Source: Methanosarcina sp. MTP4 (lineage in GTDB: Archaea > Halobacteriota > Methanosarcinia > Methanosarcinales > Methanosarcinaceae). Taken from it: DNA of 64,000 nt. The stretch spans positions 3,372,808-3,436,807 of the forward strand of contig NZ_CP009505.1 in NCBI RefSeq assembly GCF_000970045.1, read 5' to 3'. A program made the translations under genes and the position numbers. Positions 9,540 through 30,085 of the stretch are shown in pieces; the stretch's first letter is position 1; every line of letters starts with the position of its first letter. A model generated the notes under the pieces. It saw nothing but the letters and a program-made list of their open reading frames with translations. It ran no database searches and had not been told where the DNA came from.

Positions 9540-9795
9540 GGGAGAAAGAAATACAAGAAAAAAGAAAGAAAAAGGATGAGGTAGAGAAAAAGGAAAAAGA
9601 CCAATGGAACGAGAAAGGGAAAGGAAAAAGAAAGAAAAAAAGAAAGGAAAAAAGAAAGGAAATGAAGAAAAGGAAATAAAGAAAGGAAATGAAGAAAAGG
9701 AAATAAAGAAAAGGAAATAAAGGAAGGGAATAAAGAAAAGGAAAAAAGGAAAGGAAAAACAGAAAGGGAATAAAAAAAGGAAAAACAGAAAGAAC
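9540..9795. repeat. Long A/G-only low-complexity tract
   Basis: About 250 bp are almost purely purine on the plus strand, built from imperfect AAAGGAAATGAAG and GGAAATAAAG units. It separates polB from the upstream AbrB-PhoU gene. The strand asymmetry could allow triplex formation. No gene is credible here. Confidence 0.75.
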
Positions 9796-9820: not shown

Positions 9821-10885
9821 TCAGGCAACAGACGGTTTTATGTTCATATTGATTGCGACTTCCGCAATATCGGCACTGTACTCGGCAACTCTCCGCAGGC
9901 TTTCCAGGATCATGCTGAGCTCGATGTTCCCGGACCCTTCTCCATCCCTGGATTCGAGGGAAACCCCGAACTGGGACACTTTCTTGGCTTCCACAACAAT
10001 CTTGTTTATAGCCTGAAGGTCTTCTTCTGTCATAGAATCGATCGAACTTTCAAAAACCTTCTGGGAAAGGTCAGCCATCTTAAAGATGGGGTCGTCGGAA
10101 CTGATTCCGTTTTCCATCTTAGTTACGTTCTGGGCGATACGAACAGCGTGGTCTCCGACACGTTCGATGCTCTTGGTAATAAGCCTGTATCCGAGACATT
10201 CCCTTGGGTCACCGATCCCTATTTTTTCGGAAAGCTCGACGTCCTCGATAGAAGCCTTAAGCTGGCGCACCGAGAGCAGATAGAAACGGTCCACGTCATC
10301 GTCCCGCTGGATGACATCCTCAGCAATTTCCACGTTGTGGTCCTTAAGGGCAGTCATCGAGTCCTCAAGCATGGAGAGGACAAGCCCATACATGTTCTTG
10401 ATGACCCTTCTGAGTGGCAGGTCGTGGTAATTCAGGAGACACTGGAAGACCAGTTCGTTTCTGGACTCTTCCACGAGTTCAAGCCCGATAAGCTTCTGAC
10501 GCACGGAATCTTTGATAAACTTCCGGTCGTAGGCACTGAAGCCTTTCTTGGTGGTAAGCCTGATGAAGTCATAACCCACGAGGTAATGTGAAATAAGAAC
10601 CCTCAGGTTGTTTTCAGCACTGTCGGAATGCACGTAATCGATCGATGCCTTGAGAACCGACTGTTCCCTTGAAGTCGCGCTTGAGGAAACGAGCAGGGTC
10701 TTGTTAGGCATCGGGGTAAGGGTAAGCGTGTCTCCTGCCTGGAGCCCGATATCCCTCACCCACTTTATAGGAAGGGAAACAATATAAGTTGAATTTCCCG
10801 TAAACTGGACTTTTCTCTTATCTTTGGTGATAAATGAACCCCCTGGAGGCAGTCTATTCACTTGTATAGTATCTATATAGAACAT
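9821..10885 (-). CDS. AbrB-like DNA-binding domain fused to PhoU repeats
   Basis: A protein of about 354 residues. The N-terminal part is an AbrB/SpoVT-type swapped-hairpin domain: KVQFTGNSTYIVSLPIKWV, then LQAGDTLTLTPM. Two PhoU helical repeats follow (ENLRVLISHYLVGYDFIRL, and GYRLITKSIERVGDHAVRIA near residue 225). This architecture is known in methanogens as a phosphate-uptake regulator. It suggests a protein that binds DNA and senses the phosphate transporter, making it a good candidate regulator of the pst operon. ATG 10885 is used here. A TATA-like TTTATATATAAC at 10888-10899 lies so close that a shorter, nearly leaderless start (GTG 10861) is possible. Confidence 0.82.
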   Translation of the reverse strand: MFYIDTIQVNRLPPGGSFITKDKRKVQFTGNSTYIVSLPIKWVRDIGLQAGDTLTLTPMPNKTLLVSSSATSREQSVLKASIDYVHSDSAENNLRVLISHYLVGYDFIRLTTKKGFSAYDRKFIKDSVRQKLIGLELVEESRNELVFQCLLNYHDLPLRRVIKNMYGLVLSMLEDSMTALKDHNVEIAEDVIQRDDDVDRFYLLSVRQLKASIEDVELSEKIGIGDPRECLGYRLITKSIERVGDHAVRIAQNVTKMENGISSDDPIFKMADLSQKVFESSIDSMTEEDLQAINKIVVEAKKVSQFGVSLESRDGEGSGNIELSMILESLRRVAEYSADIAEVAINMNIKPSVA

Positions 10886-11491
10886 AGTTATATATAAAGG
10901 TATCCAAAAATTAGGCCACCATAATGAGAAATGAAACAAGGAACTGTTGTCTAATAATAGTATATAGGACATTTAAATAAATTGAGGGAAAACATAGACC
11001 TGCCCTGAAAAGGATATAAAGACCAAAATGTGAAAAAGCAGGGAAAGCTAGCGAATTTATTTCATGTCTTTGCTTTAACTAATTTATTACTTATGAGTAT
11101 TGGTTGCACAGTGTAATGTATTATTTAAATTATTTCAGGATAAAACAAGTAATTACATAACTTTTTATTTATATTGACACTAATTTTCACCTGTTATTTA
11201 TTTGAAACTTTTCATTAATACTTGCAAATAATCCGTTCATAAAGATAGTATAAGTATAGACATTATAACTCGAAAATGTCTTTTAAATTATCCGTCACAC
11301 ATAATAAGTAGAATAGGGACCCGCCCAAAGAGAGACATCCTCAGGAAGAAAATCAAACTATATATGGAAGGAAGAAGAACTTAAGTATATATTTACAATA
11401 AATAAAATTTTGATTATTCCTGCACCCAAAACCCATACAGTAGCTCGAAAGATCGGTTATTTCATAGAAATAAAATACGGGAAATGGATCG
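10886..11491. promoter_or_regulatory. Divergent intergenic region between the PhoU-type regulator and the kinase
   Basis: About 600 bp of AT-rich DNA without a gene. It must hold the promoters of both flanking divergent genes. TATA-like runs occur at 10888-10899 and near 11350-11400. No repeat or strong hairpin was seen. Confidence 0.4.
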
Positions 11492-14407
11492 ATGAAGCAA
11501 TTCGATATTAATCTGGAATCACTAATAAACAGCAGCCCGGTAGTCATTTTTTTATGCGGCACAGGTAAAAACTGGCCCGTTGAACTGATAACCGAGAACA
11601 TACGGCAGTTCGGCTACGAAGTAGATGACTTCATATCAGGACGCATACGGTACCTTGACATAATCCATCCCGAAGACCGGGAAGAGGTCTGTGCCGAAAT
11701 CCTCAGGTGCTCTGAGGAAGGATTCCCTGAGCTAACCCAGGAGTACAGGATACTTACAGCCTCGGGACATACACACTGGGTCGAGGTAAAAGTCCTGATC
11801 CGAAGAGACGAAAAAGGACACATAAAACACTACCAGGGAACTCTCTGCGATGCCACCCAGCGAAAAGAGGCAGAAGCTTCAATGCAAAAAGCGCTTAAAA
11901 GAAATAATGAACTAAAAAACGTAATCAACAGCAGCCCTGTGATTGTGTTCCTCTGCCAACCGGAAGAGGGCTGGCCCGTGGAATTCGTATCTGAAAACGT
12001 TACGCAGATGGGTTACACAACTGAAGACTTTACCTCCGGAAAAATAAGGTATATCGACTTTGTACATCCTGACGATCGGGAATATTTCCAGGCTGAAGTG
12101 GCCAGGTTTTCCAGGGAAGGGTACACGGACTGTACCTAGGATTACAGGGTCCTGACAAAGTCAGGAGATGTGCGATATATCGATGATAGGTCCCTGATAA
12201 AAAGGGACAAGAAAGGGGAGATCACCCATTACCAGGGGATTGTCCTGGACATCACCGAACGCAAACTGGCAGAGGAACATATAAAGGGGCAGAACAAGGT
12301 CCTTGAAAAACTTGCCTCAGGAGCCCCACTTAACGAAGTACTCCTCCTCCTGGTCAGGAATGTGGAAAAGATCAGGAGCGGTTCAACATGTTCAGTCATG
12401 CTCCCCGACCGGGAGAAAAAACACCTGTTTTACTGCGTTGCCCCAGGGCTTCCTGAATTTTACAGGCAGAAGACCGACAGGCTTGAGATCGGTTTTGGCA
12501 TGACTTCTGTAGGGACCGCAGCCTACCTGGGAAAAAGGATAACTTCGGACAATTTGATAGAAAACCCATACTGGACCGAGTACAGGGAGGTGGCAGCCAG
12601 AGCCGGGCTGAAAGCCTGCTGGTCCGAACCCATCATATCCTCTTCGGGGGAATTGCTCGGTGTCTTTTCCATGTACTACGGCGAAGTCCGAAAACCCGAA
12701 GAAGAGGACCTCGACTTTATGAAGACAAGCGCCCAGCTTGCAGCCATTGCGGTTGAGCAGAAACTGGCAGAAGAAACCCTGCGGGAATCCGAAAACAAGT
12801 TCAGGACCATATTCAATAATATCAACGACCAGCTCTACATCCGGGAGCCTGAAGGCAAAAGCTATCTGGACGTCAACCAGGCAGTTGTGAACAGGCTCGG
12901 ATACAGTAAGGAAGAAATCCTGAAAATGGAAGCCGAAGAGATAATTCCTTCCGAGTACTGGGACTCCGTCAGGGAGAACCTGAAAAAGATCCAGAGCGAA
13001 GGGTCCCGGATTTACGAAGCAGGCGCTATCTGTAAGGACGGGACAGTTGTCCCCCTTGAAGTAAGTGCCAGGATTATTGATTACGATGGCAAGAAAACGA
13101 TCCTCTCGGTTGCCAGGGACATCACAGAGCGCAAAAAAGCAGAAGCTGCACAGGTTCTGAACGCAGCCAGGCTCGAAGCCCTGGTAAAGCTTAACCAGAT
13201 GACCGGTGCGTCCCTGAAAGAAATCACGGACTTTGCCCGGGAAGAAGCAGTCAGGCTCACGGGAAGCAAACTCGGGTACCTGGCATTCATGGATGCCTAC
13301 GAAACAGCCCTCATAATGCACTCCTGGTCAAAGAGTGCAATGAAGGAGTGCAGCATTGAAGACAAACGTTTCATCTACCCGATTAAGACCACCGGGCTCT
13401 GGGGAGAAGCCATAAGGCAGCGAAAACCCATCATTACCAATGACTATACAGCACCCAGTTCCCTGAAGAAAGGATACCCGAAAGACCACGTACACCTGAC
13501 CCGGCACCTGAACGTGCCCGTGTTTGACGGGGACAGGATAGTTGCCGTTGCGGGAGTTGGAAACAAGGACGAAAACTATGACGAATCGGACGTCCGCCAG
13601 CTAACACTGCTTATGCAGGGCATGTGGCAGCTCATCCAGAGAAAGCAACTCGAAGACGCCCTGGAAACCTACTCCGAAGACCTCTCGAAAGCCAGTGATG
13701 AACTTCGGTCTTTGAACAGGATAAAAGCGGAGTTCATGACTGAAAGCCTGCCCCCTGTGAGGCTCGACTACGGGGAACTAATTGATTTTGAAACCTGGGA
13801 AGCTATAGAGGACCAGCAGCAAAAGGCAATCGATTCGGTCATCAACAATTCGGACAGATTGAGGCATATGGTAGACTCCCTCCTCTATCTCAGCCAGGAA
13901 CAGGCAGGAAAGATCGAATATTCCTTCGGGGAAGTCGAGATTAAAAAGGTCCTCTCAGATGCCTACCTCAACCTCATCCTCCTGATAGATGAAAAAGAAC
14001 TGGAGATTGAAAAGGACCTGCCTGCAAGCCTGCCGCCGATCAGTGGAGACAAACAAAAACTTACCGAGCTCTTCACCACCCTGATCAGCAATGCAATCAA
14101 GTTTACACCCCACGGCGAAACCCTTGAAGTGAAAGCCGAAGAGGAAAAACAAAGCATCCATATCACGGTCAAGGACAGCGGGACCGGCATTCAGAAAAGA
14201 CTTATCCCACACCTATTCAACAGGATTTACCAGGTTGAAGACTCCCTGAGCCGCAGGTATCAGGGACTTGAATTCGGGCTATATATCTGCAAGAACATTA
14301 TCAGTGCCCATAACGGGGAAATCTGGGTGGAAAGTGAGGAAGGTTCGGGAACCACCATGCATGTGAGACTTCCGAAAAGAAAACCTGAACCGGAAAAAGA
14401 GGCATAA
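11492..14407 (+). CDS. Multi-PAS/GAF sensor kinase with in-frame UAG (RdmS/MsmS-like)
   Basis: One reading frame of 972 codons is interrupted only by TAG at 12137-12139, codon 216. Domains in order: PAS 8-130, PAS 140-250, GAF 270-430, PAS 437-555, GAF 560-725, then a dimerisation region and an HATPase_c domain to the end (N box ISNAIKFTPHGE, G box KDSGTGIQ). PAS1 and PAS2 are tandem duplicates; the UAG replaces a Gln codon (CAG, codon 83) of PAS1 by one C-to-T change. In Methanosarcina, UAG can be read as pyrrolysine, so a full-length 971-residue protein is plausible. The usual H-box histidine is not seen (NRIKAEFMTESLPPVRL near 742). Cys620 in the second GAF could match the heme-attachment Cys of MsmS. 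By position it should sense redox or methyl sulfides and control the mts genes. If UAG stops translation, it is a pseudogene. Confidence 0.8.
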
Positions 14408-14663: not shown

Positions 14664-15482
14664 ATGAAAATTGAACTATTGGGCACTCTTTTCCTCTCAG
14701 ACAAGAGGAAAGATCTTCTTCTGCTGTTGATGGAGGAACCCCGGAATATTGATGAGATCAAAGATATTCTCAATGTAACCTCAAGCGCGATCATGACCCA
14801 GATCAAGATCCTCATCAGCCAGGGCCTGATCACACATGAAGACGACCTTTACAAGCTATCTGACATCGGGAAAGTGGTTGTTAAAAAAATGATACCACTC
14901 CTTAAAACCCTGGGTGTGTTCTCGGAGAACAAGGACTACTGGGAAAACCACAATATCAGCGCGATTCCACCCCATCTCCTGGACAAGATCGAGGATCTCG
15001 GGCACTGCGAATTCGTGGAACCCGACCTGGACAGGATGTATGAAACCCCAAAAAAGATAGAAGAAAAACTGGTCATCTCAGCTCATGTAATGGAAATCTC
15101 CTCCTATTTCAACCCGGCTTATCCGTCAACCTATGTGGAACTGATAAAAAAAGGCACAGATGTTTCCCTGATAATCACAAAACCCGTCTTTGAAAGATTG
15201 AAAAAGGAATACAATACAGCCCTGCAAGAATACCTGAGTCGGGAAAATGCAAAAATCTTCGTTTGCGACTGTCCTATAAGAGTTGCGTCAAGTGTGGTTA
15301 CAGACCGCTTCATGGCACTCTCCCTATTTTACAAAAACGGGATTTACCATAACCATGCCATCATGAGTCTGGAGGAAAACGCCCTGAAGTGGGGAGAAGA
15401 CCTCTTCCTGCATTACATGAAAAACTCAAAGGAAATAACGGAAAAGGAATTGATTGAAACAGAATTAACTGAGAAGGATTAA
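14664..15482 (+). CDS. Msr-type winged-helix regulator (DUF1724 family)
   Basis: This 272-residue cytoplasmic protein has an N-terminal ArsR-like winged helix (residues 1-75; KRKDLLLLLMEEPRNIDEIK, then the recognition segment SSAIMTQIKILISQGLI). The C-terminal domain, of the DUF1724 type, contains FVCDCPIRVASSVVTDRFMALSLF. The family includes the Msr regulators that control methanol and methylsulfide methyltransferase genes in Methanosarcina. It lies between the sensor kinase and mts copy 1 on the same strand, so mts copy 1 is the obvious target. GGAG precedes ATG 14664. A second family member is at 24195. Confidence 0.85.
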   Translation: MKIELLGTLFLSDKRKDLLLLLMEEPRNIDEIKDILNVTSSAIMTQIKILISQGLITHEDDLYKLSDIGKVVVKKMIPLLKTLGVFSENKDYWENHNISAIPPHLLDKIEDLGHCEFVEPDLDRMYETPKKIEEKLVISAHVMEISSYFNPAYPSTYVELIKKGTDVSLIITKPVFERLKKEYNTALQEYLSRENAKIFVCDCPIRVASSVVTDRFMALSLFYKNGIYHNHAIMSLEENALKWGEDLFLHYMKNSKEITEKELIETELTEKD

Positions 15483-15789
15483 CTAAAAAGTAATTGGCTG
15501 AAAAGGACAAACTGTAAACCTGAGTTCTCAAGATTCCATTTCAGTCCGAAAAAGGAAAACTTGCCCGCAGAATGCCGGGGGATACATGTGCTCTTACAGT
15601 GAACAGAATTACTCAGTTCCCCTGATTGAGCCCCGATCCCTCAAGCTCATATTGAGTTTACAAATCCTGCCCTTTCTCACTTAAAAAACAAACGACTATT
15701 TTTAATTCAACAAGATACGGTTTCCTCATTTCCCGATATTATTTTCCAGAATAATCTGAGTCCAGAATTGCTGATCCTTGAACGATCTG

Positions 15790-15936
15790 TTTTATGTATG
15801 AGATGTTTTATGAATGAGATGTTTTATGGATGAGATGTTTTATGGATGAGATGTTTTATGGATGAGATGTTTTATGGATGAGATGTTTTATGGATGAGAT
15901 GTTTTATGGATGAGATGTTTTATGGATGAGATGTTT
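15790..15936. repeat. 16-bp minisatellite, about nine copies
   Basis: The unit GATGAGATGTTTTATG is repeated nearly perfectly about nine times. The array is bracketed by a longer imperfect direct repeat containing CTGATCCTTGAACGA at both sides. It lies about 500 bp upstream of mts copy 1. Confidence 0.9.
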
Positions 15937-16175
15937 CCGGAATAACTGATCCTTGAACGAGCTATTTCCCGAATTACTGATTATTGAATAATCTGTTTCT
16001 CAGGGCATCTACTTCCAGAACCAAGGACTTTTCTACCAGGTAGGATACCCGCGTGATTCGGGAAACATATCAAATGAACACAAAATCAGAATGCATTGGC
16101 CCTTTTATCCGAGGCAAATCAGACACACTGATAAGATCAAAGGCTTTGATCAAATTAAAGTCCCCGATCAAATAG

Positions 16176-16389
16176 GTTAACGCCGTTAAATCGGATGAAA
16201 CTACAGAATCATGAGAGTTAACAAAATCAGGGAAATTCACAAAATTGGCCATCAAGAGAGATGTTAACTACGTTAATCAAATTTCTGCGTTTATGTTATA
16301 TGTATAAAAGTCAATTTATGCTTTGAAGTTAACAGCATGAAGGGATGCACCCGAAAAGTGAATCCCGATTCGAGCTACTCACTGTTAAC
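16176..16389 (+). promoter_or_regulatory. GTTAAC site cluster and promoter of mts copy 1
   Basis: The palindrome GTTAAC occurs five times, at 16176, 16217, 16263, 16328 and 16384. Two of them extend to the same 14-bp form, GTTAACNNCGTTAA (16176-16189 and 16263-16276). A TATA-like ATGTATAAAAG lies around 16300-16310, which would put the transcript start near 16330, so sites lie on both sides of the promoter. This looks like an operator array for the nearby Msr-type regulator or another activator. No such cluster was seen upstream of mts copy 2. Confidence 0.6.
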
Positions 16390-16425
16390 AAGGGAATAAC
16401 CGCAAAAAATGTAGGAAGCGTTTTT

Positions 16426-18330
16426 ATGGCAGCAGACATCTTGAACCAATTAGCGGAAGCTGTCGTCGAAGGAGAAGAAGACGACGCAGAAGAACTCGCA
16501 CAGAAAGCCCTCGAAATGGGCGTTGACCCCTATGAAGCAGTCATCAACGGCCTAGCAAAAGGAATGACCATTGTCAGTGACCAGTATGAGAAAGGAGAAG
16601 CCTTTGTACCCCACCTCCTGCTCGCATCCGGAGCAATGTATGCAGGCATGGACATCCTCGTCCCACACATGGTCAAAGACGGGGACTCCAAGCAGGCTGT
16701 AGGTATCATAGGAACCATCGAGGGAGACGTGCATGACATTGGTAAGAACCTTGTTAAGACCATGCTCAGTGCAAACGGGTTTGAAATGATTGACCTGGGC
16801 GCAGACGTCCCCATCGAGAAGTTTGTGGAAACCGCAAAGGAGCGCAAGGCCGACCTGATTTCCATGAGCGCTCTTATGACCACGACCATGACAAACATGG
16901 AAAAGGTCATTGAGATCCTCCAGGAAGAAGGTATCCGCGACGCCATGAAGGTCATGGTAGGAGGAGCCCCCGTCTCAGAGGAATACGCAGCAGCCATCGG
17001 CGCGGACTCCACTCACCCCGACGCCCTGCACGCAAGCGCCTGGGCAACCGAATTTGTGAAAGAACTCGGGACTGCGGATGAGCGCTGGAGTGACGAGAAG
17101 ATCAACCTGGGCAAGATCAAGTACAGGGAGATCCTGGCAAAGAAAGTAGTCTCCGAGAAAGTCGACATCGGAATTGAGACTGCAAACAAGATCAAGGAAG
17201 AGTTCGAAAGTGTGGGTGTGAAGGTCAAGGAAGAAATGACCCACATCGATAGGACCGTGTCCGCAATGTCCGACAAGAAGGTTGACCGTCTGCCTGTCTA
17301 CCCCCTTGCCTGCGGTGTCCTCAGAAAGTTTGCCCCTGTCACCTACAAGGAATACGCAACAAACGAAGACGCCTTTGTCGAGAGTGCATTCCTCGGGTCC
17401 AAGTACCTGGACATGGACATGTTTGTGGGGCTTATTGACCTTTCCGCAACCTCCGCGGACTTCGGATGCAAGATCAAATACCCCGAAGACGATACCCCCT
17501 CCTCCGAAGGCCACCTTAAAGACTACGATCAGCTTGAGGTCCCCGAACTCAAGGAAGGCACCCGTGGCTACGAACTTGTCATGGCTTCAAAGAAGGCAAA
17601 GGAAAAACTCAACAGTGAACTCAACACTCCCTTCGTTGGCTTCCACGAAGGCCCGCTTCTTACCCTTACCCAGCTCATGGGAGCGGACAGGGTCCTTATG
17701 GACATGAAGACCAACCCTGAAGTCGTCCTTGAAGCGGTCCAGAAGTGTACCGACTACATCTGCCAGCTTTCCGAGCTCTTCTTCGAAGAAGACGCCTGTG
17801 ACGGGCTCTGTGTGGACAACCTCTGGTCCAACAACATCATCATGAGCGAGGAAGACTACTGGAAGTTTGACGGGAAGTTCGTCTATGAACAGCACGTTCC
17901 GCTCTTCAAGAAGTACAACCAGCCCTACATGATCCACAACTGTGCAGACGCGGTTCATTTCGAGACCCAGATCAGGAAGTTCGGAACATCCCTCTACAGC
18001 TACGCATACTATGAAAAGACCAGGGAAAAGGGTTCCCAGAACTACGCAGACCTCATCCCCAAGTACGGAGATATCTGCTGTATGATGGGAGAAGTCAACC
18101 CGGTTGAGTTCATGGACGGCTCCGCTGCAGGGGTCCAGAAGGTCACAGACGATACGAAGACCCTGCTCGAAAACGTACTCCCCGTACTCAAGGAGAACGG
18201 GCTCCAGTCCAAGTACGTCATGTCTACCGGCTGTGAAGTCCCACCAGGAGGCCCGCTGACCACAGTCCAGGCAATGGTGAACACCGTTAAGGAACTCGGT
18301 CCGGAACTCCAGAAGTCAATCATAGGGTGA
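16426..18330 (+). CDS. Corrinoid/methyltransferase fusion, methylsulfide:CoM methyltransferase (copy 1)
   Basis: This 634-residue cytoplasmic protein belongs to the MtsD/MtsF/MtsH family. Residues 1-215 are a cobalamin-binding domain with GDVHDIGKN; His103 is the expected lower cobalt ligand. The rest is a MtaA/MtbA-like (uroporphyrinogen decarboxylase fold) methyltransferase with zinc ligands His504-x-Cys506 (IHNC) and Cys603 (TGCEVPP). It should move methyl groups from methanethiol or dimethylsulfide through its own corrinoid to coenzyme M. I chose ATG 16426 (MAADILNQL), which aligns with the start of copy 2. An in-frame ATG at 16345 would add 27 unrelated residues and falls only about 15 nt after the predicted transcript start. 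Which of D, F or H it matches cannot be decided here. Confidence 0.9.
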   Translation: MAADILNQLAEAVVEGEEDDAEELAQKALEMGVDPYEAVINGLAKGMTIVSDQYEKGEAFVPHLLLASGAMYAGMDILVPHMVKDGDSKQAVGIIGTIEGDVHDIGKNLVKTMLSANGFEMIDLGADVPIEKFVETAKERKADLISMSALMTTTMTNMEKVIEILQEEGIRDAMKVMVGGAPVSEEYAAAIGADSTHPDALHASAWATEFVKELGTADERWSDEKINLGKIKYREILAKKVVSEKVDIGIETANKIKEEFESVGVKVKEEMTHIDRTVSAMSDKKVDRLPVYPLACGVLRKFAPVTYKEYATNEDAFVESAFLGSKYLDMDMFVGLIDLSATSADFGCKIKYPEDDTPSSEGHLKDYDQLEVPELKEGTRGYELVMASKKAKEKLNSELNTPFVGFHEGPLLTLTQLMGADRVLMDMKTNPEVVLEAVQKCTDYICQLSELFFEEDACDGLCVDNLWSNNIIMSEEDYWKFDGKFVYEQHVPLFKKYNQPYMIHNCADAVHFETQIRKFGTSLYSYAYYEKTREKGSQNYADLIPKYGDICCMMGEVNPVEFMDGSAAGVQKVTDDTKTLLENVLPVLKENGLQSKYVMSTGCEVPPGGPLTTVQAMVNTVKELGPELQKSIIG

Positions 18331-18994
18331 GGTTCACCTCCCCTATTTTTCAATTTAATCCGGGAAACTGAAAAACAAAAGGCAAAACTCCTGTAATCAA
18401 ATTTATCTCTGGTTTTAATGCGGCATATCACAGCCAAAGAAAACCTTTACCAAATCCCAGATAAAAAACAGAAAAACGGAAAAACAGAAAAACGGAAAAA
18501 CAGAAAAACGAAAAAACGGAAAAACGAAAAAACGGAAAAACGAAAAAAATGTTTTAACCTCCAATAGGGATGAGAAATCGTTCCATTATATATCTCCAAC
18601 TTCATAAAACTTTCAAATATACAGCGGAGGAATGTCGTGCAGCATCTTCCGGCAAAAAGAACAGAAAAAGGGTGGTTGCTCGCCACCCTCCTCAACCTGA
18701 AGAAAAACGGGAAAACACTGTTATGTCTTTTTTTAAAAAGGTGTTTTTATCAGTAAAAATTAAAAAGGGTTTTGCAGCCTTCGAATTAACCTGAATTTAC
18801 CAATCAATCTCATAAATAAATCTCATAAATAAATCTCATAAATAAATCTCATAAATAAATCTCATAAATAAATCTCATAAATAAATCTCATAAATAAATC
18901 TCATAAATAAATCTCATAAATAAATCTCATAAATAAATTCATACGGTTTAAAAAACCAAAATAGTGGCCATAGACAATAGAGAGGAGGAATACC
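18331..18994. repeat. Intergenic region with two simple-repeat blocks
   Basis: No gene is credible. From about 18465 to 18550 there is an A-rich tandem repeat of AAAAACGGAAAAACAG type. From 18806 to 18939 the 13-bp unit AAATAAATCTCAT is repeated about ten times, ending 55 bp before the hydantoinase-like gene. A small inverted repeat GGTGAGGTTCACC follows the mts stop. Confidence 0.8.
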
Positions 18995-20929
18995 ATGGAG
19001 CTGGGTCTGGGAATCGATACTGGAGGAACATATACCGATGCCGCAATCATGGATATGTTAAACGGGACAATAATCGAATCAAACAAGGCACTTACGACAT
19101 ATCCGGATTTGATAAGAGGAATAACAAATTCTATTGAAGGGTTAAACCCCGACTACCTGAAAAGCATCAAATCCGTATCAGTTTCTACCACTCTTGCCAC
19201 CAATACCACACTTGAGGGAAAAGGCTACCCGGCAGGGATGATCCTTATCGGACACACCGTTCCAAAAAAACTTTCCGGCGATTACGTAATATCGATCAAA
19301 GGCGGCCACGACTCCGATGGAAATGAGAGTGCTCCCCTTGAAGACCTGGAAACAGTAAAGGAGTTTGTCCGGAAGGTAGGAAAAAGGGTAGCTGCTTTTG
19401 CCGTTTCAGGATATTTCGGGGTCAGAAACCCCGAACACGAACTGAAAGTGAAAGAAGCCATCCGGGAAATAACGGACATGCCAGTAGTCTGTGGTCACGA
19501 ACTTTCCCTGAGCCTCGGGGCTTACGAAAGAGCAGTGACAGCCCTTCTGAACGCCCAGCTCATCCCCATAAGCAAGCAGTTCATCAAATCCATCCAGACC
19601 GTGATAGAAGAAAAGGGTATCAACGCCACCCTCATGATGATGAAATGCGACGGCTCTCTTGTAAGGATTGAAGAGGCCCTGCAAAAACCCGTAGAATCCA
19701 TATTCTCAGGCCCTGCCGCAAGTCTTGTCGGGGCAGCCCACCTGACAGGCCTGGACACCTGCGTGACTGTGGATGTGGGAGGTACAAGTACCGATATTGC
19801 CATGATCTCGAAAGGTGTTCCCGAGATCAGCGACTCAGGTGCTAAAGTGGGCGGCTGGAAGACGATGGTGAAGGCTATCAGGATGGACACATCCGCGCTT
19901 GGCGGGGACAGCCAGGTCTGGATTAAAAGGAAGCCGTACCTGGGTCCTAACAGGGTAGTTCCTCTCTGCCTTGCAGCCGCGGAATTCCCGGTGCTGCTGG
20001 AGAAACTCGAAGCCATCGAAAAACCAAAAGAACGCCTGATGGACGAGATCATACAGCCAACAACATTTTTCTTCAGGAACGGGCCTCATTCCGAGGAGCA
20101 CCTTACCGCGGAACTCGGGGAGGACGAAAAAGTAATCCTTGACCTCCTTGGAGAAGAGCCGCTTTCAGTTTATGAAATCTCGGCAAAATCCGGAAAACAC
20201 CCGCTGATGTTTGCCAGCAACCTGAAGGCCCTGATCCAGAAACGCTATGTGGGCCAGGTTGGGTTTACCCCGACAGATGCCCTCCACGTACTGGGGGAAT
20301 ATGCCCGGTGGGATACAAGAGCCTCCTGGCTCGGGGCAAAAATTCTCGGGCCCTACCTGAAAAAGGGCCCGGAAGAGTTTTCCGCCCATATCAAGGCAGA
20401 AGTCGTAAGGAAACTTGCCCTGGAACTGGTATCCTTCTTTGCGGATGACCTGAAGAAAACGGATATTGAAAAACTGATAGGAAAAGAAGCTTACCTGAAA
20501 TTCCGGGTAAAAGTCCCCGTTGTATTAGTAGGGGCTCCGGTGAGGGCCTACCTCAAAGACCTTAACGAGATTATTGACGCAGACATCCGGATCCCCGCAT
20601 ACCACGAAGTTGGAAATGCCGTGGGAGCCCTCGCAGGCAAAGTAATCCACAGGACAGAAGTCCTGATCCGCCCCCTTGCCGCAGGAAATGCCGGGTACAC
20701 GGTGTTCTCCGAACTTGGGAGAGATATCTTCGAAGAGTACGGACATGCCCTGGACTACGGCCTTGAACTCAGCCAGAAACTAGTTTCGGAGTACATGGGC
20801 GGATACGGCTTAGAAATGGAAAACGTCGAGTATGACCTGAAACGAAACGATGTGGGAAGCGCTGGAAAAGCCCCGCTGGAAACCCGCCTGATCGGGATCG
20901 GAGTAGGATCAAACGGAAAACTTGCATAA
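18995..20929 (+). CDS. Hydantoinase A / oxoprolinase-family ATPase
   Basis: This 644-residue protein has the ASKHA-type fold of HyuA, acetone carboxylase beta and 5-oxoprolinase. The N-terminal phosphate loop is LGIDTGGTYTDAA and the second is VDVGGTSTDIAMIS near residue 262. SGPAASLVGAAHL lies just before it. These enzymes use ATP to activate amide or carbonyl substrates and normally work with a HyuB-like partner, which is absent here. GGAGGAAT precedes ATG 18995. It lies between mts copy 1 and chaperonin 1, and 83 bp separate it from the chaperonin, so co-transcription is likely. The substrate is unknown; a role in methyl-sulfur metabolism is only inferred from position. Confidence 0.8.
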   Translation: MELGLGIDTGGTYTDAAIMDMLNGTIIESNKALTTYPDLIRGITNSIEGLNPDYLKSIKSVSVSTTLATNTTLEGKGYPAGMILIGHTVPKKLSGDYVISIKGGHDSDGNESAPLEDLETVKEFVRKVGKRVAAFAVSGYFGVRNPEHELKVKEAIREITDMPVVCGHELSLSLGAYERAVTALLNAQLIPISKQFIKSIQTVIEEKGINATLMMMKCDGSLVRIEEALQKPVESIFSGPAASLVGAAHLTGLDTCVTVDVGGTSTDIAMISKGVPEISDSGAKVGGWKTMVKAIRMDTSALGGDSQVWIKRKPYLGPNRVVPLCLAAAEFPVLLEKLEAIEKPKERLMDEIIQPTTFFFRNGPHSEEHLTAELGEDEKVILDLLGEEPLSVYEISAKSGKHPLMFASNLKALIQKRYVGQVGFTPTDALHVLGEYARWDTRASWLGAKILGPYLKKGPEEFSAHIKAEVVRKLALELVSFFADDLKKTDIEKLIGKEAYLKFRVKVPVVLVGAPVRAYLKDLNEIIDADIRIPAYHEVGNAVGALAGKVIHRTEVLIRPLAAGNAGYTVFSELGRDIFEEYGHALDYGLELSQKLVSEYMGGYGLEMENVEYDLKRNDVGSAGKAPLETRLIGIGVGSNGKLA

Positions 20930-21012: not shown

Positions 21013-22620
21013 ATGGCAAGCGAACTGAAAACGTCTAACGGTACTAATCCGGAAAGCCGGGACGGAATGGCAAACCTGGCAAGGACAATAAGAGACAAGA
21101 TCCTCATCAACGAACCGGTAAAAGAAGAAGGGCTTATCGACCAGCTAGAAAGGGCTGCAAAGGAAATCGACGAGCTTCTGGCATCATCCCTGGGTCCTAA
21201 AGGGATGAACAAGATGGTAGTAAACCCGGTGAACGACGTATTCATAACAAACGACGGGAAGGTCATCCTCAAGGAAATGGACGTCCTCCACCCGATCGTA
21301 ACTACCCTCAAAAAGCTTGCGGAATCCATGGACAAGGCCTGCGGGGACGGAACTAAAACCGCAGTGATCCTGGCAAGCAACCTGATTAAAAACGCAATTG
21401 AGCTGATAAGAGCCGGAGTCCACCCCACTATTATAATAGAAGGCTATGAACTTGCCCTGCAAAAAGCCTATGAAATGCTCCGGTACAGCATAAGGCAGGC
21501 AGGAGAAGAGGATGTCAGGACCACGATTACATGCTCTGCCACAGGGAAAGGAGTGGAGAGAAAGCAGGCGGAAGAGATTACGGACGTCGTACTGGGAGTT
21601 ATCGCCCACCTGAGCGAGACGCAGAAAGGCCGCCTCGACCTCAACCGGAACGTGAAGGTCCTGAAGAAGGTGGGAGGGCCGGAGATGGTGGCCCTGGAAG
21701 GCCTGATAATGGACGAAAACCCGGCAAGGACGGATATGCCAAAGGACTTTGAAAACCCCTCGGTGCTCCTGATCAATTACGACCTCAAGATTAAAAGCGG
21801 ATACCTCAACCCCCAGCACAACCTGAGAATGGATTCCGTGCAGACAGCCCTTATGTTTGAGGAAAGAAAGAAGGAGATGTGCAGGGAGCTTGCGGGAAAA
21901 ATAATCAATTCGGGCGCAAACGTCCTCTTTTGCGAGGGAGATATAGACCCCTATATCGAGACCCTGCTTCGAGACAGCAAGATACTGGCTTTCAAGAAAC
22001 TGAAAATGAAAGACCTGGAAAAGCTTTCTGAAGCCACGGGTACGACCCTGATGAGCAAGAATGACGAGATTCTGCCCCGGCACCTCGGTAAAGCCGACAG
22101 GATTAAGCTTGAAAAACGAAACAGGGAAAACTTCGTATTCATAACCGTGAAGGGAAAACCGATTTCCACGATCCTGATATGGGACCCGACAAGGTACGGG
22201 CTGGACAAGGTGGAAGAAGCAGTGGATGACGCCCTTAACAATGCTGCTTTCCTCATAAAAAACAGGGAGATAGTAAACGGCGGAGGCGCAATTGAGTTTG
22301 AACTGGCCCACATGATCAGGATATTTGCGGCAACACAGACAGGAAAGAAACAGCTGGCTATCCTGGCATACGCCGGAGCCCTGGAAAAGGTTCCGGAAAC
22401 CCTGGCAAGAAATGCGGGAATGAAAACCATCGATGCGATGGTGGAGATGAGAAACGCCTACGCCAGAGGAGTGGAGGCAAGGATAGATATCTCAAGGAAA
22501 GTTACGGATAAGGGGCCGAAAGTCTACGATTCGGCAACGATCAAGAAACTTGCCCTGATATCGGCAACAGAAACCGCAAGAAACGTCCTCAGGATTGACG
22601 AGATAATCCCAAAAGCCTGA
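21013..22620 (+). CDS. Diverged group II-like chaperonin (copy 1)
   Basis: This 535-residue thermosome-fold protein has LGPKGMNKM (residues 60-68), ITNDGKVIL with Asp81, GDGTK at 111-115, an AVDDAL element near 393 and NGGGAIEFELA near 408. It differs from ordinary thermosome subunits. GDGTT is GDGTK, and the C-terminus ends RIDEIIPKA without the Gly-Met-rich tail. It probably belongs with the extra Hsp60-4/Hsp60-5 proteins described for Methanosarcina. It may fold or assemble the products of neighbouring mts and hydantoinase genes; this is inference. ATG 21013 is preceded by GGGGA. The structured RNA at 22655 begins about 40 nt after the stop. Confidence 0.88.
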   Translation: MASELKTSNGTNPESRDGMANLARTIRDKILINEPVKEEGLIDQLERAAKEIDELLASSLGPKGMNKMVVNPVNDVFITNDGKVILKEMDVLHPIVTTLKKLAESMDKACGDGTKTAVILASNLIKNAIELIRAGVHPTIIIEGYELALQKAYEMLRYSIRQAGEEDVRTTITCSATGKGVERKQAEEITDVVLGVIAHLSETQKGRLDLNRNVKVLKKVGGPEMVALEGLIMDENPARTDMPKDFENPSVLLINYDLKIKSGYLNPQHNLRMDSVQTALMFEERKKEMCRELAGKIINSGANVLFCEGDIDPYIETLLRDSKILAFKKLKMKDLEKLSEATGTTLMSKNDEILPRHLGKADRIKLEKRNRENFVFITVKGKPISTILIWDPTRYGLDKVEEAVDDALNNAAFLIKNREIVNGGGAIEFELAHMIRIFAATQTGKKQLAILAYAGALEKVPETLARNAGMKTIDAMVEMRNAYARGVEARIDISRKVTDKGPKVYDSATIKKLALISATETARNVLRIDEIIPKA

Positions 22621-23991: not shown

Positions 23992-24198
23992 ATGAAAAAA
24001 ATAGGTGTTTCTTCCCAATTGTGTGAGTATACAAGGAAAATAAGTGGAAAGATCAAATGGGATAAAAGCTCTGTGGAACGTCAGGTTCCATATGCAACCT
24101 TAAACATTTGCAATATAGAAAAAAGACTTTCTGTTGAGGTCCCGGAGTTGAATTTCTGGAGTTGCCCCCAGGCAAAGGGTCAGAAGTTGATATTATGA
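23992..24198 (+). CDS. Shortened relative of the Cys-rich small protein at 32765
   Basis: This 68-residue frame starts MKKIGVSSQLCEYTRKISG, behind a GAGAGGAAAA site. Its first 25 residues resemble the start of the 142-residue protein at 32765 (KVSSYICGITHTIMGRVEGDK). Its middle PYATLNICNIEKR resembles PPAVFNICSIEKE of that protein. About 60 central residues, including most of the Cys cluster, are missing. Its TGA overlaps the ATG of the following regulator (ATGA at 24195-24198), a layout typical of translational coupling. So it may be a decayed gene whose translation still matters for regulator expression. Confidence 0.5.
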   Translation: MKKIGVSSQLCEYTRKISGKIKWDKSSVERQVPYATLNICNIEKRLSVEVPELNFWSCPQAKGQKLIL

Positions 24199-24968
24199 GC
24201 GGGATTGTAGATTTGATCTTTTATTCTGAAAAAAGGAAAGAAATTCTTATATTGCTTGCTGAGAGCCCAAAAAGCGCCGACGAAATCAAAAACGGACTTT
24301 GTGGCGACACACTTTCAATAACTCCACAGCTAAAAAAGCTGAAGGACATGGACATTATTGTCCAGCACGAAGATACCTTCGAACTCACGGATATAGGGAA
24401 AATAATTGTTAAAAAAATGCTGCCTCTAACCGAACTCTTCCAGGCCTTTGAGGACAACAACGATTACTGGTCAAAGCACGACCGAAGGCCAATCCCCGAG
24501 CACCTGATAAATAAAATGCACATGCTTGGGAAATGCAAAGTGGATGAGCCTGACCTTGGTCACCTTTTCGAATTCCCGAACGAGCTGAAAGAAATAGTAT
24601 TCAGATCCACAAGGCTCAGAGTGTTTTACTCGTTCTTTTGCCCTGAATCTCCTGCAATTCAGGAAACCTGCGCAAAAAAAGGGACAAAAATGGACCTGAT
24701 TATGGATGAAAAAGTATACAGCAGATTAAAAAACGACTTTGAGGACACATACAGGACCCTTCTTGAAAATAATGTTCCACTCTACGTTTACAAAGGAGAA
24801 ACAAAACCCTCTTCATTTATGGTCACCGATGAGTTTATAACCCTGAAACTCTTTAGAAAAAAAGGAGAGTTTGACCACCGAAGGTTAATGAGTTTCAACA
24901 AAAGTGCCATTGAATGGGGAGACGAGCTGGCGGATTACTACATCGGACTCTCGGAGAAAGTAAATTAA
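24195..24968 (+). CDS. Msr-type winged-helix regulator (DUF1724 family), second copy
   Basis: This 257-residue paralogue of the protein at 14664 has the same layout. The N-terminal winged helix contains SEKRKEILILLAESPKSADEIK and SITPQLKKLKDMDII. The C-terminal DUF1724-like domain contains SSFMVTDEFITLKLF. ATG 24195 aligns with the paralogue; a longer frame from TTG 24162 would add 11 unrelated residues. It overlaps the upstream short gene by 4 bp. It stands 720 bp before mts copy 2 and is the likely regulator of that gene. Confidence 0.82.
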   Translation: MSGIVDLIFYSEKRKEILILLAESPKSADEIKNGLCGDTLSITPQLKKLKDMDIIVQHEDTFELTDIGKIIVKKMLPLTELFQAFEDNNDYWSKHDRRPIPEHLINKMHMLGKCKVDEPDLGHLFEFPNELKEIVFRSTRLRVFYSFFCPESPAIQETCAKKGTKMDLIMDEKVYSRLKNDFEDTYRTLLENNVPLYVYKGETKPSSFMVTDEFITLKLFRKKGEFDHRRLMSFNKSAIEWGDELADYYIGLSEKVN

Positions 24969-24997
24969 AGTGAAAACTGCAACATATCCTGCTGTAA

Positions 24998-25024
24998 CCA
25001 GCGGTGTATTTTTTGCACCGCTGG
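24998..25024 (+). terminator. Perfect 9-bp hairpin after the second regulator
   Basis: CCAGCGGTG and CACCGCTGG form a perfect 9-bp stem around a T-rich loop, 30 nt after the regulator stop. It separates the regulator from mts copy 2. Confidence 0.6.
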
Positions 25025-25046
25025 AATAAATTCAAAACCATAAAGG

Positions 25047-25116
25047 TTTTAATCTTGTTTTTTAATCTTGTTTTTTAATCCTGCTTTTCAATCCTGCTTT
25101 TCAATCCTGCTTTTTT
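25047..25116. repeat. 14-bp tandem repeat
   Basis: About five imperfect copies of a unit close to TTTTCAATCCTGCT follow the terminator. Confidence 0.75.
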
Positions 25117-25249
25117 GATACACCGTCCAGTAAATATTGAATCAACGTGCCCTGAACAATACCCTCAAATATTTCAAGAGGGAAAATTTTTGAAGGCACA
25201 TATTTTGACTGGGTCCCATTATCCAGGAAGGAATCTTTTTTTGCCTCCA

Positions 25250-25450
25250 TTCCTAAAAGGCACACTTTCCTATTTGATCTAAATTCCCGAAAGGTATTCT
25301 TTCCTATTTGACCCAGGTTCCCAAAAGAGGAAGATCTGAAAACATGGAGATACCCGCAAAAGAGAAAAGTTGAAAAAAGAATGTCACAGAAAATATTTAA
25401 TATAATATAAAAAACCGCGTCGGCTATGCTATATATTATTGAAGGCTACT
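25250..25450 (+). promoter_or_regulatory. Promoter region of mts copy 2
   Basis: TTTCCTATTTGA occurs at 25266-25277 and again at 25300-25311, inside a 34-bp tandem duplication that also repeats TTCCC and AAAG. A TATA-rich run (TTTAATATAATATAAAAA) begins near 25397, which would give a 5' leader of about 260 nt before the ATG. The paired motif may be a regulator site. Confidence 0.45.
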
Positions 25451-25689
25451 AATTGAATGGTTACTACCATAGCAAAAAGGTGAACATCAGGAAGCCGGAA
25501 AAACAGTTATTTTCAGACCAATCCGATGAAAGATCATCTATTCAGGGAAGCAACGGTTGGATGGGCATCAAGAGCTCTATGGAAAAATTAAGGGGCAGGG
25601 ATTTCTGAACTGACCCTTACCTGCAGCATTATATGGAAAAAGGAATGCCGTGACCTGGCACACCTAATCTTGAAAAAAGGAGATTTTCA

Positions 25690-27585
25690 ATGGCAAAAGA
25701 AGACATTTTAAACGGTTTAGCGGACGCTGTAGTTGAAGGCGACGACGACATTGCAGAAGAATTTGCACAAAAAGCCCTTGATGAGGAAGTTGATGCATAC
25801 GAAGCAATTGTCGACGGGCTTGCAAAGGGTATGAAGATCATCAGTGACATGTACGAGAAGGGAGAAGCATTCGTGCCAAGCCTTCTGCTCGCAGCTGACG
25901 CAATGTATGCCGGAATGGACATCCTCACTCCCTACATCAACGCAGACACAAGCGCTGAGCCCAAGAACGTTATCATCGGTACCGTCGAAGGGGACGTGCA
26001 CGACATCGGAAAGAACCTTGTTAAGACCATGATGACAGCAGCAGGTTTCAACATGATCGACCTCGGCTGCGACGTGCCTCTCGACAAGTTCGCAGAAGTT
26101 GCAAAGGAAAAAAGGGCAACCGGTATCTCCATGAGCACACTCATGACCACCACCATGGGCGGCATGGAAACAGTTATCGAGCAGCTCCAGGAGGTAGGTA
26201 TCAGAGACTCCCTCGTAGTTATGATAGGTGGCGCACCTGTTTCCAGAGACTTCGCAGACTCGATCGGCGCAGACGGCACAGCCCTTGACGCCAGCGCAGC
26301 AGTCGAAACCATGACCTCCCTTGCAAGCGAACTTCCTGCCGATTCCTGGAGCGACTCCTCAATCGCAGAAAGCAAGATGAAGTACAAGGAAATCCTGGCC
26401 CAGAAAGGAACAAAAGAAAATATAGACATCGGTCTTATAACCGCCGAAAAGGTCATAGCAGAGTTCGAATCTGTCGTGCCCAAGTTCAACGAAACCATGA
26501 CCAAGATTGAGAGGTTCTCCGCATCCTTCGAAGACAAGAAGGTCGACAGGCTTCCGATCGCAACTCTTGCCTGCGGTGTATCCAGAAAGTTCGTGCCCTG
26601 TTCTTACAAGGAGTACTCGACAAGTGCAGAGAAGTACGCAGAAAGTGCCTTCACAGGTATCAAATACTTTAACATGGACACTTTCGTCGGGCTGACCGAT
26701 CTTTGTGTGGATGCAGCCGACTTCGGCGCAGAGATAAGGTACCCCGAAGAAGACACCCCTGCAGCAATCGGCCACCTTGAAGACTACGAGAAACTCGAAG
26801 TCCCCGAAATCAAGGAAGGAACCCGGGCTTACAACCTCATCCAGGGTAACAAGCTCGCAACCGAGAAGGCCCACTCCATCGATGCCCCCATGACCGCCCT
26901 GATCGAAGGCCCGATGGTCGCCCTGACCCAGATTATGGGAGCAACCCGCGTGCTTTCCGATCTCAGGACCAACCCGGATGTCGTCCTCAAGGCCCTTGAC
27001 AAGACAGCTACCTACGTTGAAGAGATCATGAAGGGCATGTTCGAAGAAGCCCAGCCAGACAACCTCTGTATGGTAACCCTCTGGACCAACAACGTCATCC
27101 TCAGCGCTGACGAATACATGAAGTCCGAAGGTCAGATCATGCAGAACAGGGTTGCTCCGCTCTACAAGCAGTACAACAAGCCAACGGTCATCCACAACTG
27201 TTCCGACGCCCCGCACTGGGACCTCATCAGCAAGTGGGACACCAAATACTACAGCTACACCTTCTATCCGGATGAAGTCAACAAGGGATCCAAGGACCAC
27301 AAGCACCTGATCTCCACCTACGGCAAGGACACAATGTTCGCCGGGGAAGTCAGTCCGATCCTTTTCCTCGACAACTCCCCAGAAGGCATCGAGAAAATGA
27401 AAGCAGACACCGTGAACCTCCAGGAGAGCGTCCTCACCGCCCTCAAGGAAAACGGCATGCAGTCCAAGTATGCGATTGCAACCGGCTGTGAAGTGCCGCC
27501 AGGAGCACCCTGTGACGCTATCACTGCCCAGACCTACACTGTAGCAGAGAAGGGACCGGAAATCTACAAGAAGATCATCGGATAA
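25690..27585 (+). CDS. Corrinoid/methyltransferase fusion, methylsulfide:CoM methyltransferase (copy 2)
   Basis: This 631-residue paralogue of the gene at 16426 has the same architecture. The N-terminal cobalamin domain contains GDVHDIGKN with His104 as the cobalt ligand. The C-terminal zinc methyltransferase has His502-x-Cys504 and Cys600 (IHNC, TGCEVPP). The expected reaction is methyl transfer from methylated thiols to coenzyme M. AAGGAG precedes ATG 25690 at good spacing. The start region reads AATGGCAAAA, perfectly complementary to the loop sequence of the structured RNAs in this island. Codon use is that of a highly expressed gene. A strong hairpin terminator follows. Confidence 0.92.
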   Translation: MAKEDILNGLADAVVEGDDDIAEEFAQKALDEEVDAYEAIVDGLAKGMKIISDMYEKGEAFVPSLLLAADAMYAGMDILTPYINADTSAEPKNVIIGTVEGDVHDIGKNLVKTMMTAAGFNMIDLGCDVPLDKFAEVAKEKRATGISMSTLMTTTMGGMETVIEQLQEVGIRDSLVVMIGGAPVSRDFADSIGADGTALDASAAVETMTSLASELPADSWSDSSIAESKMKYKEILAQKGTKENIDIGLITAEKVIAEFESVVPKFNETMTKIERFSASFEDKKVDRLPIATLACGVSRKFVPCSYKEYSTSAEKYAESAFTGIKYFNMDTFVGLTDLCVDAADFGAEIRYPEEDTPAAIGHLEDYEKLEVPEIKEGTRAYNLIQGNKLATEKAHSIDAPMTALIEGPMVALTQIMGATRVLSDLRTNPDVVLKALDKTATYVEEIMKGMFEEAQPDNLCMVTLWTNNVILSADEYMKSEGQIMQNRVAPLYKQYNKPTVIHNCSDAPHWDLISKWDTKYYSYTFYPDEVNKGSKDHKHLISTYGKDTMFAGEVSPILFLDNSPEGIEKMKADTVNLQESVLTALKENGMQSKYAIATGCEVPPGAPCDAITAQTYTVAEKGPEIYKKIIG

Positions 27586-28447: not shown

Positions 28448-28477
28448 ATTCAAAGCAACGCTGTCTTGGGGAAAAAC

Positions 28478-30085
28478 ATGGCAAGCGAACTAAAAACACC
28501 TGAAGGAACCGATCTTGAAAGCCGGGACGGAATGGCAAACCTGGCAAGGACCATAAGAGACAAGATCCTCATCAACGAGCCGGTAAAAGAAGACGGGCTT
28601 ATCGACCAGCTCGAAAGGGCTGCAACGGAAATAGACGAACTTCTGGCATCATCCCTGGGCCCGAAAGGGATGAACAAGATGGTAGTAAATCCGGTGAACG
28701 ACGTGTTCATAACAAACGACGGGAAAGTGATCTTAAAGGAAATGGACGTCCTCCACCCGATCGTAACTACCCTGAAAAAGCTTGCTGAATCAATGGACAA
28801 AGCCTGCGGGGACGGGACGAAAACAGCGGTGATCCTGGCAAGCAACCTGATTAAAAACGCAATTGGGCTGATAAGAGCGGGAGTACACCCCACAATTATC
28901 ATAGAAGGCTACGAACTTGCCCTGCAAAAAGCCTATGAGATGCTCCGGTACAACATAAGGCAGGCAGGGGAAGAGGACGTCAGGACAACGATTGCGTGCT
29001 CAGCCACCGGAAAAGGGGTGGAGAGAAAGCAGGCGGAGGAGATTACGGACGTCGTACAGGGAGTTATAGCCCACCTGAGCGAGACGCAGAAAGGCCGCCT
29101 CGACCTCAACCGGAACGTGAAGGTCCTGAAGAAGATGGGAGGGCCGGGGATGGTGGCCCTGGAAGGCCTGATAATGGACGAAAACCCGGCAAGGACGGAT
29201 ATGCCAAGGGACTTTGAAGAACCCTCGGTGCTCATTATCAATTACGACCTCAAGATTAAAAGCGGATACCTCAACCCACAGCATAACCTGAGAATGGACT
29301 CTGTCCAAACGGCTCTCCTTTTTGAGGAGAGAAAGAAGGAGATGTGCAGGGAGCTTGCGGGAAAAATAATCAATTCGGGCGCAAACGTCCTCTTTTGCGA
29401 GGGAGATATAGACCCCTATATCGAGACCCTGCTTCGGGACAGCAAGATACTGGCTTTCAAGAAACTGAAAATGAAAGACCTGGAAAAGCTTTCGGAAGCC
29501 ACGGGTACGACCCTGATGAGCAAGAATGACGAGATCCTGCCCCAGCACCTCGGTAAAGCCGACAGGATTAAGCTTGAAAAACGAAACAGGGAGAACTTCG
29601 TCTTCATAACCGTGAAGGGAAAACCGATTTCCACGATCCTGATATGGGACCCGACAAGGTACGGGCTGGACAAGGTGGAAGAAGCAGTGGATGACGCCCT
29701 TAACAATGCTGCTTTCCTCATAAAAAACAGGGAGATAGTAAACGGCGGAGGCGCAATTGAGTTTGAACTGGCCCACATGGTCAGGATATTTGCGGCAACA
29801 CAGACAGGAAAGAAACAGCTGGCTATCCTGGCATACGCCGGAGCCCTGGAAAAGGTCCCGGAAACCCTGGCAAGAAATGCGGGAATGAAAACCATCGATG
29901 CGATGGTGGAGATGAGAAACGCCTACGCCAGAGGAGTGGAGGCAAGGATAGATATCTCAAGGAAAGTTACGGATAAGGGGCCGAAAGTCTACGATTCGGC
30001 AACGATCAAGAAACTTGCCCTGATCTCGGCAACAGAGACCGCAAGAAACGTCCTCAGGATTGACGAGATAATCCCAAAAGCCTGA
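28478..30085 (+). CDS. Diverged group II-like chaperonin (copy 2)
   Basis: This 535-residue protein is nearly identical to copy 1 at 21013. Differences concentrate in the first 15 residues and at scattered sites, while long stretches of DNA in the last two thirds are identical. It shares GDGTK in place of GDGTT and the lack of a Gly-Met tail. ATG 28478 (MASELK) matches copy 1; the frame could extend four codons to TTG 28466, which is not supported. It follows the small unknown gene and is followed at 46 nt by the structured RNA. Likely function: assembly of methyltransferase-island proteins, alone or mixed with copy 1 in one ring. This is inference. Confidence 0.88.
   Translation: MASELKTPEGTDLESRDGMANLARTIRDKILINEPVKEDGLIDQLERAATEIDELLASSLGPKGMNKMVVNPVNDVFITNDGKVILKEMDVLHPIVTTLKKLAESMDKACGDGTKTAVILASNLIKNAIGLIRAGVHPTIIIEGYELALQKAYEMLRYNIRQAGEEDVRTTIACSATGKGVERKQAEEITDVVQGVIAHLSETQKGRLDLNRNVKVLKKMGGPGMVALEGLIMDENPARTDMPRDFEEPSVLIINYDLKIKSGYLNPQHNLRMDSVQTALLFEERKKEMCRELAGKIINSGANVLFCEGDIDPYIETLLRDSKILAFKKLKMKDLEKLSEATGTTLMSKNDEILPQHLGKADRIKLEKRNRENFVFITVKGKPISTILIWDPTRYGLDKVEEAVDDALNNAAFLIKNREIVNGGGAIEFELAHMVRIFAATQTGKKQLAILAYAGALEKVPETLARNAGMKTIDAMVEMRNAYARGVEARIDISRKVTDKGPKVYDSATIKKLALISATETARNVLRIDEIIPKA

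Follow-up and report, generated by a model that had tools for sequence, protein, structure and literature searches.

We analysed a 64,000-nucleotide stretch of the Methanosarcina sp. MTP4 genome (the window), which carries on its forward strand an rdmS-type kinase gene (11492–14407) of 971 codons followed by a TAA stop when an in-frame TAG at 12137–12139 is read through. Readthrough differs from table 11 translation at this single codon across the frame, in agreement with a preliminary description, which held that the kinase frame was intact on either side of the TAG and free of further lesions. A Pfam search identified three PAS_3, two GAF_2 and one HATPase_c domain, in the order PAS, PAS, GAF, PAS, GAF, HATPase_c, and detected neither HisKA nor an H-box, which fits an MA_type 2 kinase. 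The TAG is codon 216 and lies in the second PAS domain (PAS2), the core of which spans 11933–12250 on the forward strand (residues 148–253 from the secondary structure of an AlphaFold2 model; Pfam PAS_3 at residues 165–251). Aligning the tandem PAS domains (repeat offset of 133 codons) places it opposite the CAG of Gln83 in PAS1 (11738–11740, forward strand), with the contexts ACC CAG GAG at codon 83 and ACC TAG GAT at codon 216, as had been described. The AlphaFold2 model (pTM 0.34, used for strand assignment alone) puts residue 216 early in strand G of PAS2 (residues 213–221); a PDB fold search matched generic PAS/GAF proteins.

By sequence, the kinase gene is the orthologue of Methanosarcina acetivorans RdmS (MA0863). 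Its product is 83% identical over 932 residues to the copy (L097) in genome G074, with which it forms one clade in the tree; we take G074 to be M. acetivorans, partly on the basis of its TAG-bearing Thg1 gene. Gene order is also shared. In the window, rdmS lies upstream of an MsrF-like regulator gene with HTH_5 and FilR1_middle domains (Pfam; 14664–15482, forward strand) and the gene for an MtsD-like methyl-sulfide methyltransferase, a corrinoid/methyltransferase fusion (16345–18330, forward strand; assigned by Pfam and synteny), followed by a gene for a hydantoinase/ASKHA-type protein (Pfam; 18995–20929, forward strand), a conserved neighbour of the mtsD-like gene. The divergent neighbour of rdmS encodes a protein with MazE/AbrB-like and PhoU domains (9821–10972, reverse strand). 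Both the regulator and the divergent gene recur beside rdmS in L018 and L151, and in L018 the regulator is followed, as in the window, by the MtsD-like fusion and the hydantoinase-type gene. Thus, M. acetivorans RdmS, although from another species, shares with MTP4 RdmS both the UAG at codon 216 and the flanking MsrF-like regulator and PhoU-like genes. RdmS and MsmS of M. acetivorans are MA_type 2 kinases that lack an H-box (PMC11784639), RdmS has been reported to bind heme covalently (PMC7542351), and dimethyl sulfide is the preferred substrate of M. acetivorans MtsD (PMC7374477).

Across 112 genomes of the family, an RdmS orthologue was found in 16, from two genera. These proteins are 78–96% identical, and codon 216 is TAG in every one; a check of the codon in related strains had been proposed in the preliminary description. 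No TAA, TGA or second TAG occurs in the 14,948 codons of the 16 genes. By contrast, the MsmS paralogues (L002 and L012) have AAG at this position; the copy in the MTP4 genome (L002) can be aligned to RdmS over its whole length at 61% identity, yet has Lys there and lacks two cysteines of RdmS, Cys155 and Cys214. CAG is found in 13/13 related kinases, which come from two other genera. In an IQ-TREE phylogeny, the TAG sequences make up one side of a branch (support 99/99), the CAG sequences another, and the AAG of MsmS stands apart; because each codon state occupies one side of a branch, a single origin of the TAG suffices. Most simply, therefore, the TAG would have arisen once, on the RdmS stem, with CAG (Gln) as the most likely ancestor and AAG as a possible one. 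The earlier proposal of a single C-to-T change thus keeps its Gln source, given CAG in all 13 related kinases, but not its character as an isolated lesion, since the change dates far back and has become fixed in two genera.

The MTP4 genome encodes tRNA-Pyl (anticodon CTA), PylS and a putative PylB open reading frame in a row (L116), and each of its two MtmB genes contains one TAG. The preliminary description had made the reading of this UAG as pyrrolysine hinge on pylT and pylS; both tRNA-Pyl and PylS were found. PylS is present in 15 of the 16 genomes with RdmS, the exception being a genome (G101) that is 60% complete. Given these pyl genes, the conserved codon and purifying selection downstream of it, UAG 216 is very probably decoded as pyrrolysine, and the sequence comparisons indicate that the RdmS type has a real, long-conserved pyrrolysine codon in Methanosarcina relatives. 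In this, RdmS resembles the methyltransferases MtmB, MtbB and MttB, each of which has a single in-frame UAG decoded as pyrrolysine; in those enzymes, however, the residue is catalytic, whereas RdmS is a sensory kinase.

Median pairwise dN/dS was 0.105 for codons 1–215, 0.060 for codons 217–260, 0.078 for codons 217–431 and 0.049 for codons 432–930, values that are rough because many pairs are near synonymous saturation. Judged from these ratios, purifying selection is acting on both sides of the UAG. Among the orthologues, 11 of 194 fourfold sites are invariant, with a tree length of 5.19. Starting from T, the probability that T is kept at the first codon position in all 16 genes is 0.031 if Gln can replace pyrrolysine equally well, and 0.017 if Gln and Lys are both freely exchangeable with it; the test concerns one codon under a simple model, and P values of 0.02–0.03 are moderate. 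About 57% of RdmS residues are likewise invariant among the 16 orthologues. These data suggest that the TAG has been retained beyond what free exchange with Gln or Lys would give (P about 0.02, moderate), and its retention in 16/16 orthologues suggests that the importance of pyrrolysine extends from the methylamine enzymes to a signalling protein.

We therefore favour, with considerable confidence, a reading in which a full-length kinase with pyrrolysine at residue 216 is produced from a codon of single origin that selection has retained. In this model, tRNAPyl would read the UAG near the start of PAS2 strand G, the full-length RdmS-type kinase would be made in the cell, and the TAG, with a single origin on the RdmS stem and CAG as its simplest source, would then have been held by selection; pyrrolysine would perform some function in PAS2 for which Gln or Lys is less suited. 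If a truncated product of 215 residues is made, it would most likely be a by-product of competition from release factor.

The alternative that survives best accepts the full-length kinase and supposes that its pyrrolysine is neutral and tolerated, Gln or Lys being equally good at residue 216. An RdmS_O216K variant of the M. acetivorans protein was made, purified in soluble form and loaded with heme (PMC7542351), which indicates that pyrrolysine is dispensable for recombinant folding and heme binding, and related kinases have Gln or Lys at the position. A precedent for a neutral pyrrolysine is Thg1 of M. acetivorans, which, like RdmS, has an in-frame UAG outside the methyltransferases (PMC8211752). 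We found this case in G074, where the Thg1 gene (L150:272–1003, reverse strand) contains one in-frame TAG and, alone among 95 genomes, has a shortened frame (144 residues versus at least 242); in another genome (G071), a TAA lies inside the Thg1 match. However, the Thg1 TAG occurs in 1/95 genomes, as opposed to 16/16 orthologues for the RdmS codon, and the probabilities of 0.017–0.031 that free exchange would leave the TAG in all 16 also weigh against neutrality, which we regard as possible but doubtful.

A less likely alternative, put forward in the preliminary description, is that the UAG acts as a switch, the proportions of full-length and truncated RdmS tracking the supply of Pyl-tRNA and so coupling the control of methyl-sulfide genes to growth on methylamines. 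UAG decoding does compete with termination, the meaning of UAG in Acetohalobium depends on the growth substrate (PMC8211752), and rdmS adjoins methyl-sulfide genes. Yet readthrough in methanogen methyltransferases reaches up to 97% (PMC8211752), and the 215-residue product would, in the AlphaFold2 model, end inside strand G of PAS2. Termination as the purpose of the codon is further disfavoured because TAA or TGA would serve equally, yet TAG alone occurs; a function for the truncated PAS protein envisaged in the preliminary description thus loses ground. We consider such a switch improbable. Both it and the neutral alternative share pyrrolysine decoding with the favoured reading and part from it over the role of the residue; because the readings are thus not all mutually exclusive, the likelihoods that we attach to them do not sum to one.

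A conserved PYLIS-type element, or any obligate RNA signal, was also considered and is unsupported. A 7-bp hairpin follows the UAG in this species (12150–12166, forward strand; z about −3.2 in the window and L102), but its conservation does not extend to every orthologue: the best folds of L097 and L100 lack it, and covariation is weak, with changes on both sides in only 2/18 pairs. A review agrees with the lack of support for an obligate signal (PMC8211752).

Two separate proteins, a UAG-terminated PAS protein and a kinase made by downstream reinitiation, are very improbable: a second open reading frame of 745 codons does begin at GTG 12170–12172 (Val227, forward strand), the nearest possible internal start, but this codon is a start in only 8/16 orthologues, neither TAA nor TGA ever takes the place of the TAG, and in-frame conservation of residues runs on from the UAG to the next start. 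We therefore rejected reinitiation at this GTG. A pseudogene, recent nonsense mutation or sequencing error, to which the in-frame stop might point, has a negligible chance and was ruled out by the identical codon in 16 independent genomes and the low downstream dN/dS.

A role for pyrrolysine 216 inside PAS2 is plausible. Cys214 (12131–12133) and Cys155 (11954–11956), both on the forward strand, are invariant in RdmS; MsmS and the related kinases have Phe at the former position and Trp (Arg in one case) at the latter. Both cysteines are thus confined to RdmS, in the same phylogenetic pattern as pyrrolysine 216. Cys214 and residue 216 are at i and i+2 of one modelled strand and should point to the same face, and the imine carbon of pyrrolysine adds nucleophiles such as sulfite (PMC9842639). 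This shared RdmS-only pattern and the reactive imine make a sensing role in PAS2 a testable idea. Speculatively, and with only a slim likelihood, the electrophilic imine, together with Cys214, two residues back in the strand, and Cys155 from another part of PAS2, might react reversibly with a nucleophile such as methanethiol, sulfide, coenzyme M or a methylamine, reporting substrate to the methyl-sulfide methyltransferase system; pyrrolysine would then serve sensing, not catalysis. An orientation of residue 216 towards the pocket by comparison with FixL was dropped: anchoring on the hairpin glycine makes it equivalent to FixL Arg220, each being nine residues before the glycine (1dp6 sequence), whereas MAFFT aligns Arg220 with RdmS Arg219.

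The usual description restricts pyrrolysine to methylamine methyltransferases (PMC11363022), transposases and Thg1 being the only other cases listed (PMC8211752). Have et al. 2013 (PMC3639795) included among their candidates for selection a UAG-bearing sensory histidine kinase (cluster 16) of M. acetivorans, M. barkeri and M. mahii; this was a computational prediction, and the kinase, for which the text gives no locus tag, is probably rdmS. The 2020 paper that purified RdmS_O216K did so as in a previous study, which it cites (PMC7542351). Because O is the letter for pyrrolysine, the name of the construct implies prior recognition of the UAG at 216 in the M. acetivorans gene. Our literature search found no paper that names RdmS together with pyrrolysine. 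As far as the literature found shows, how deeply the codon is conserved in the two genera, and the cysteines linked to it, both read from sequence comparison, would be the addition to prior knowledge. That a signalling kinase has kept this residue in both genera makes it directly testable whether pyrrolysine has a use in sensing or otherwise outside catalysis; moreover, the recombinant O216K form on which biochemical work was done may be missing a feature of the native protein.

The window also contains a second FilR1-type regulator gene with a corrinoid/methyltransferase fusion gene (24162–27585), and the two such pairs (14664–18330 and 24162–27585) roughly fit the locus-tag spacing of MtsD and MtsF in MTP4 (PMC7374477). 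Downstream of each fusion gene lies a group II chaperonin (TCP1/Cpn60) gene (21013–22620 and 28466–30085). Four tandem repeats lie outside the main genes: 13.4 copies of a 13-base unit at 9619–9792 (80%), 9.3 of a 16-base unit at 15788–15936 (98%), 5.4 of a 16-base unit at 18463–18548 (95%) and 11 of a 13-base unit at 18802–18943 (98%).
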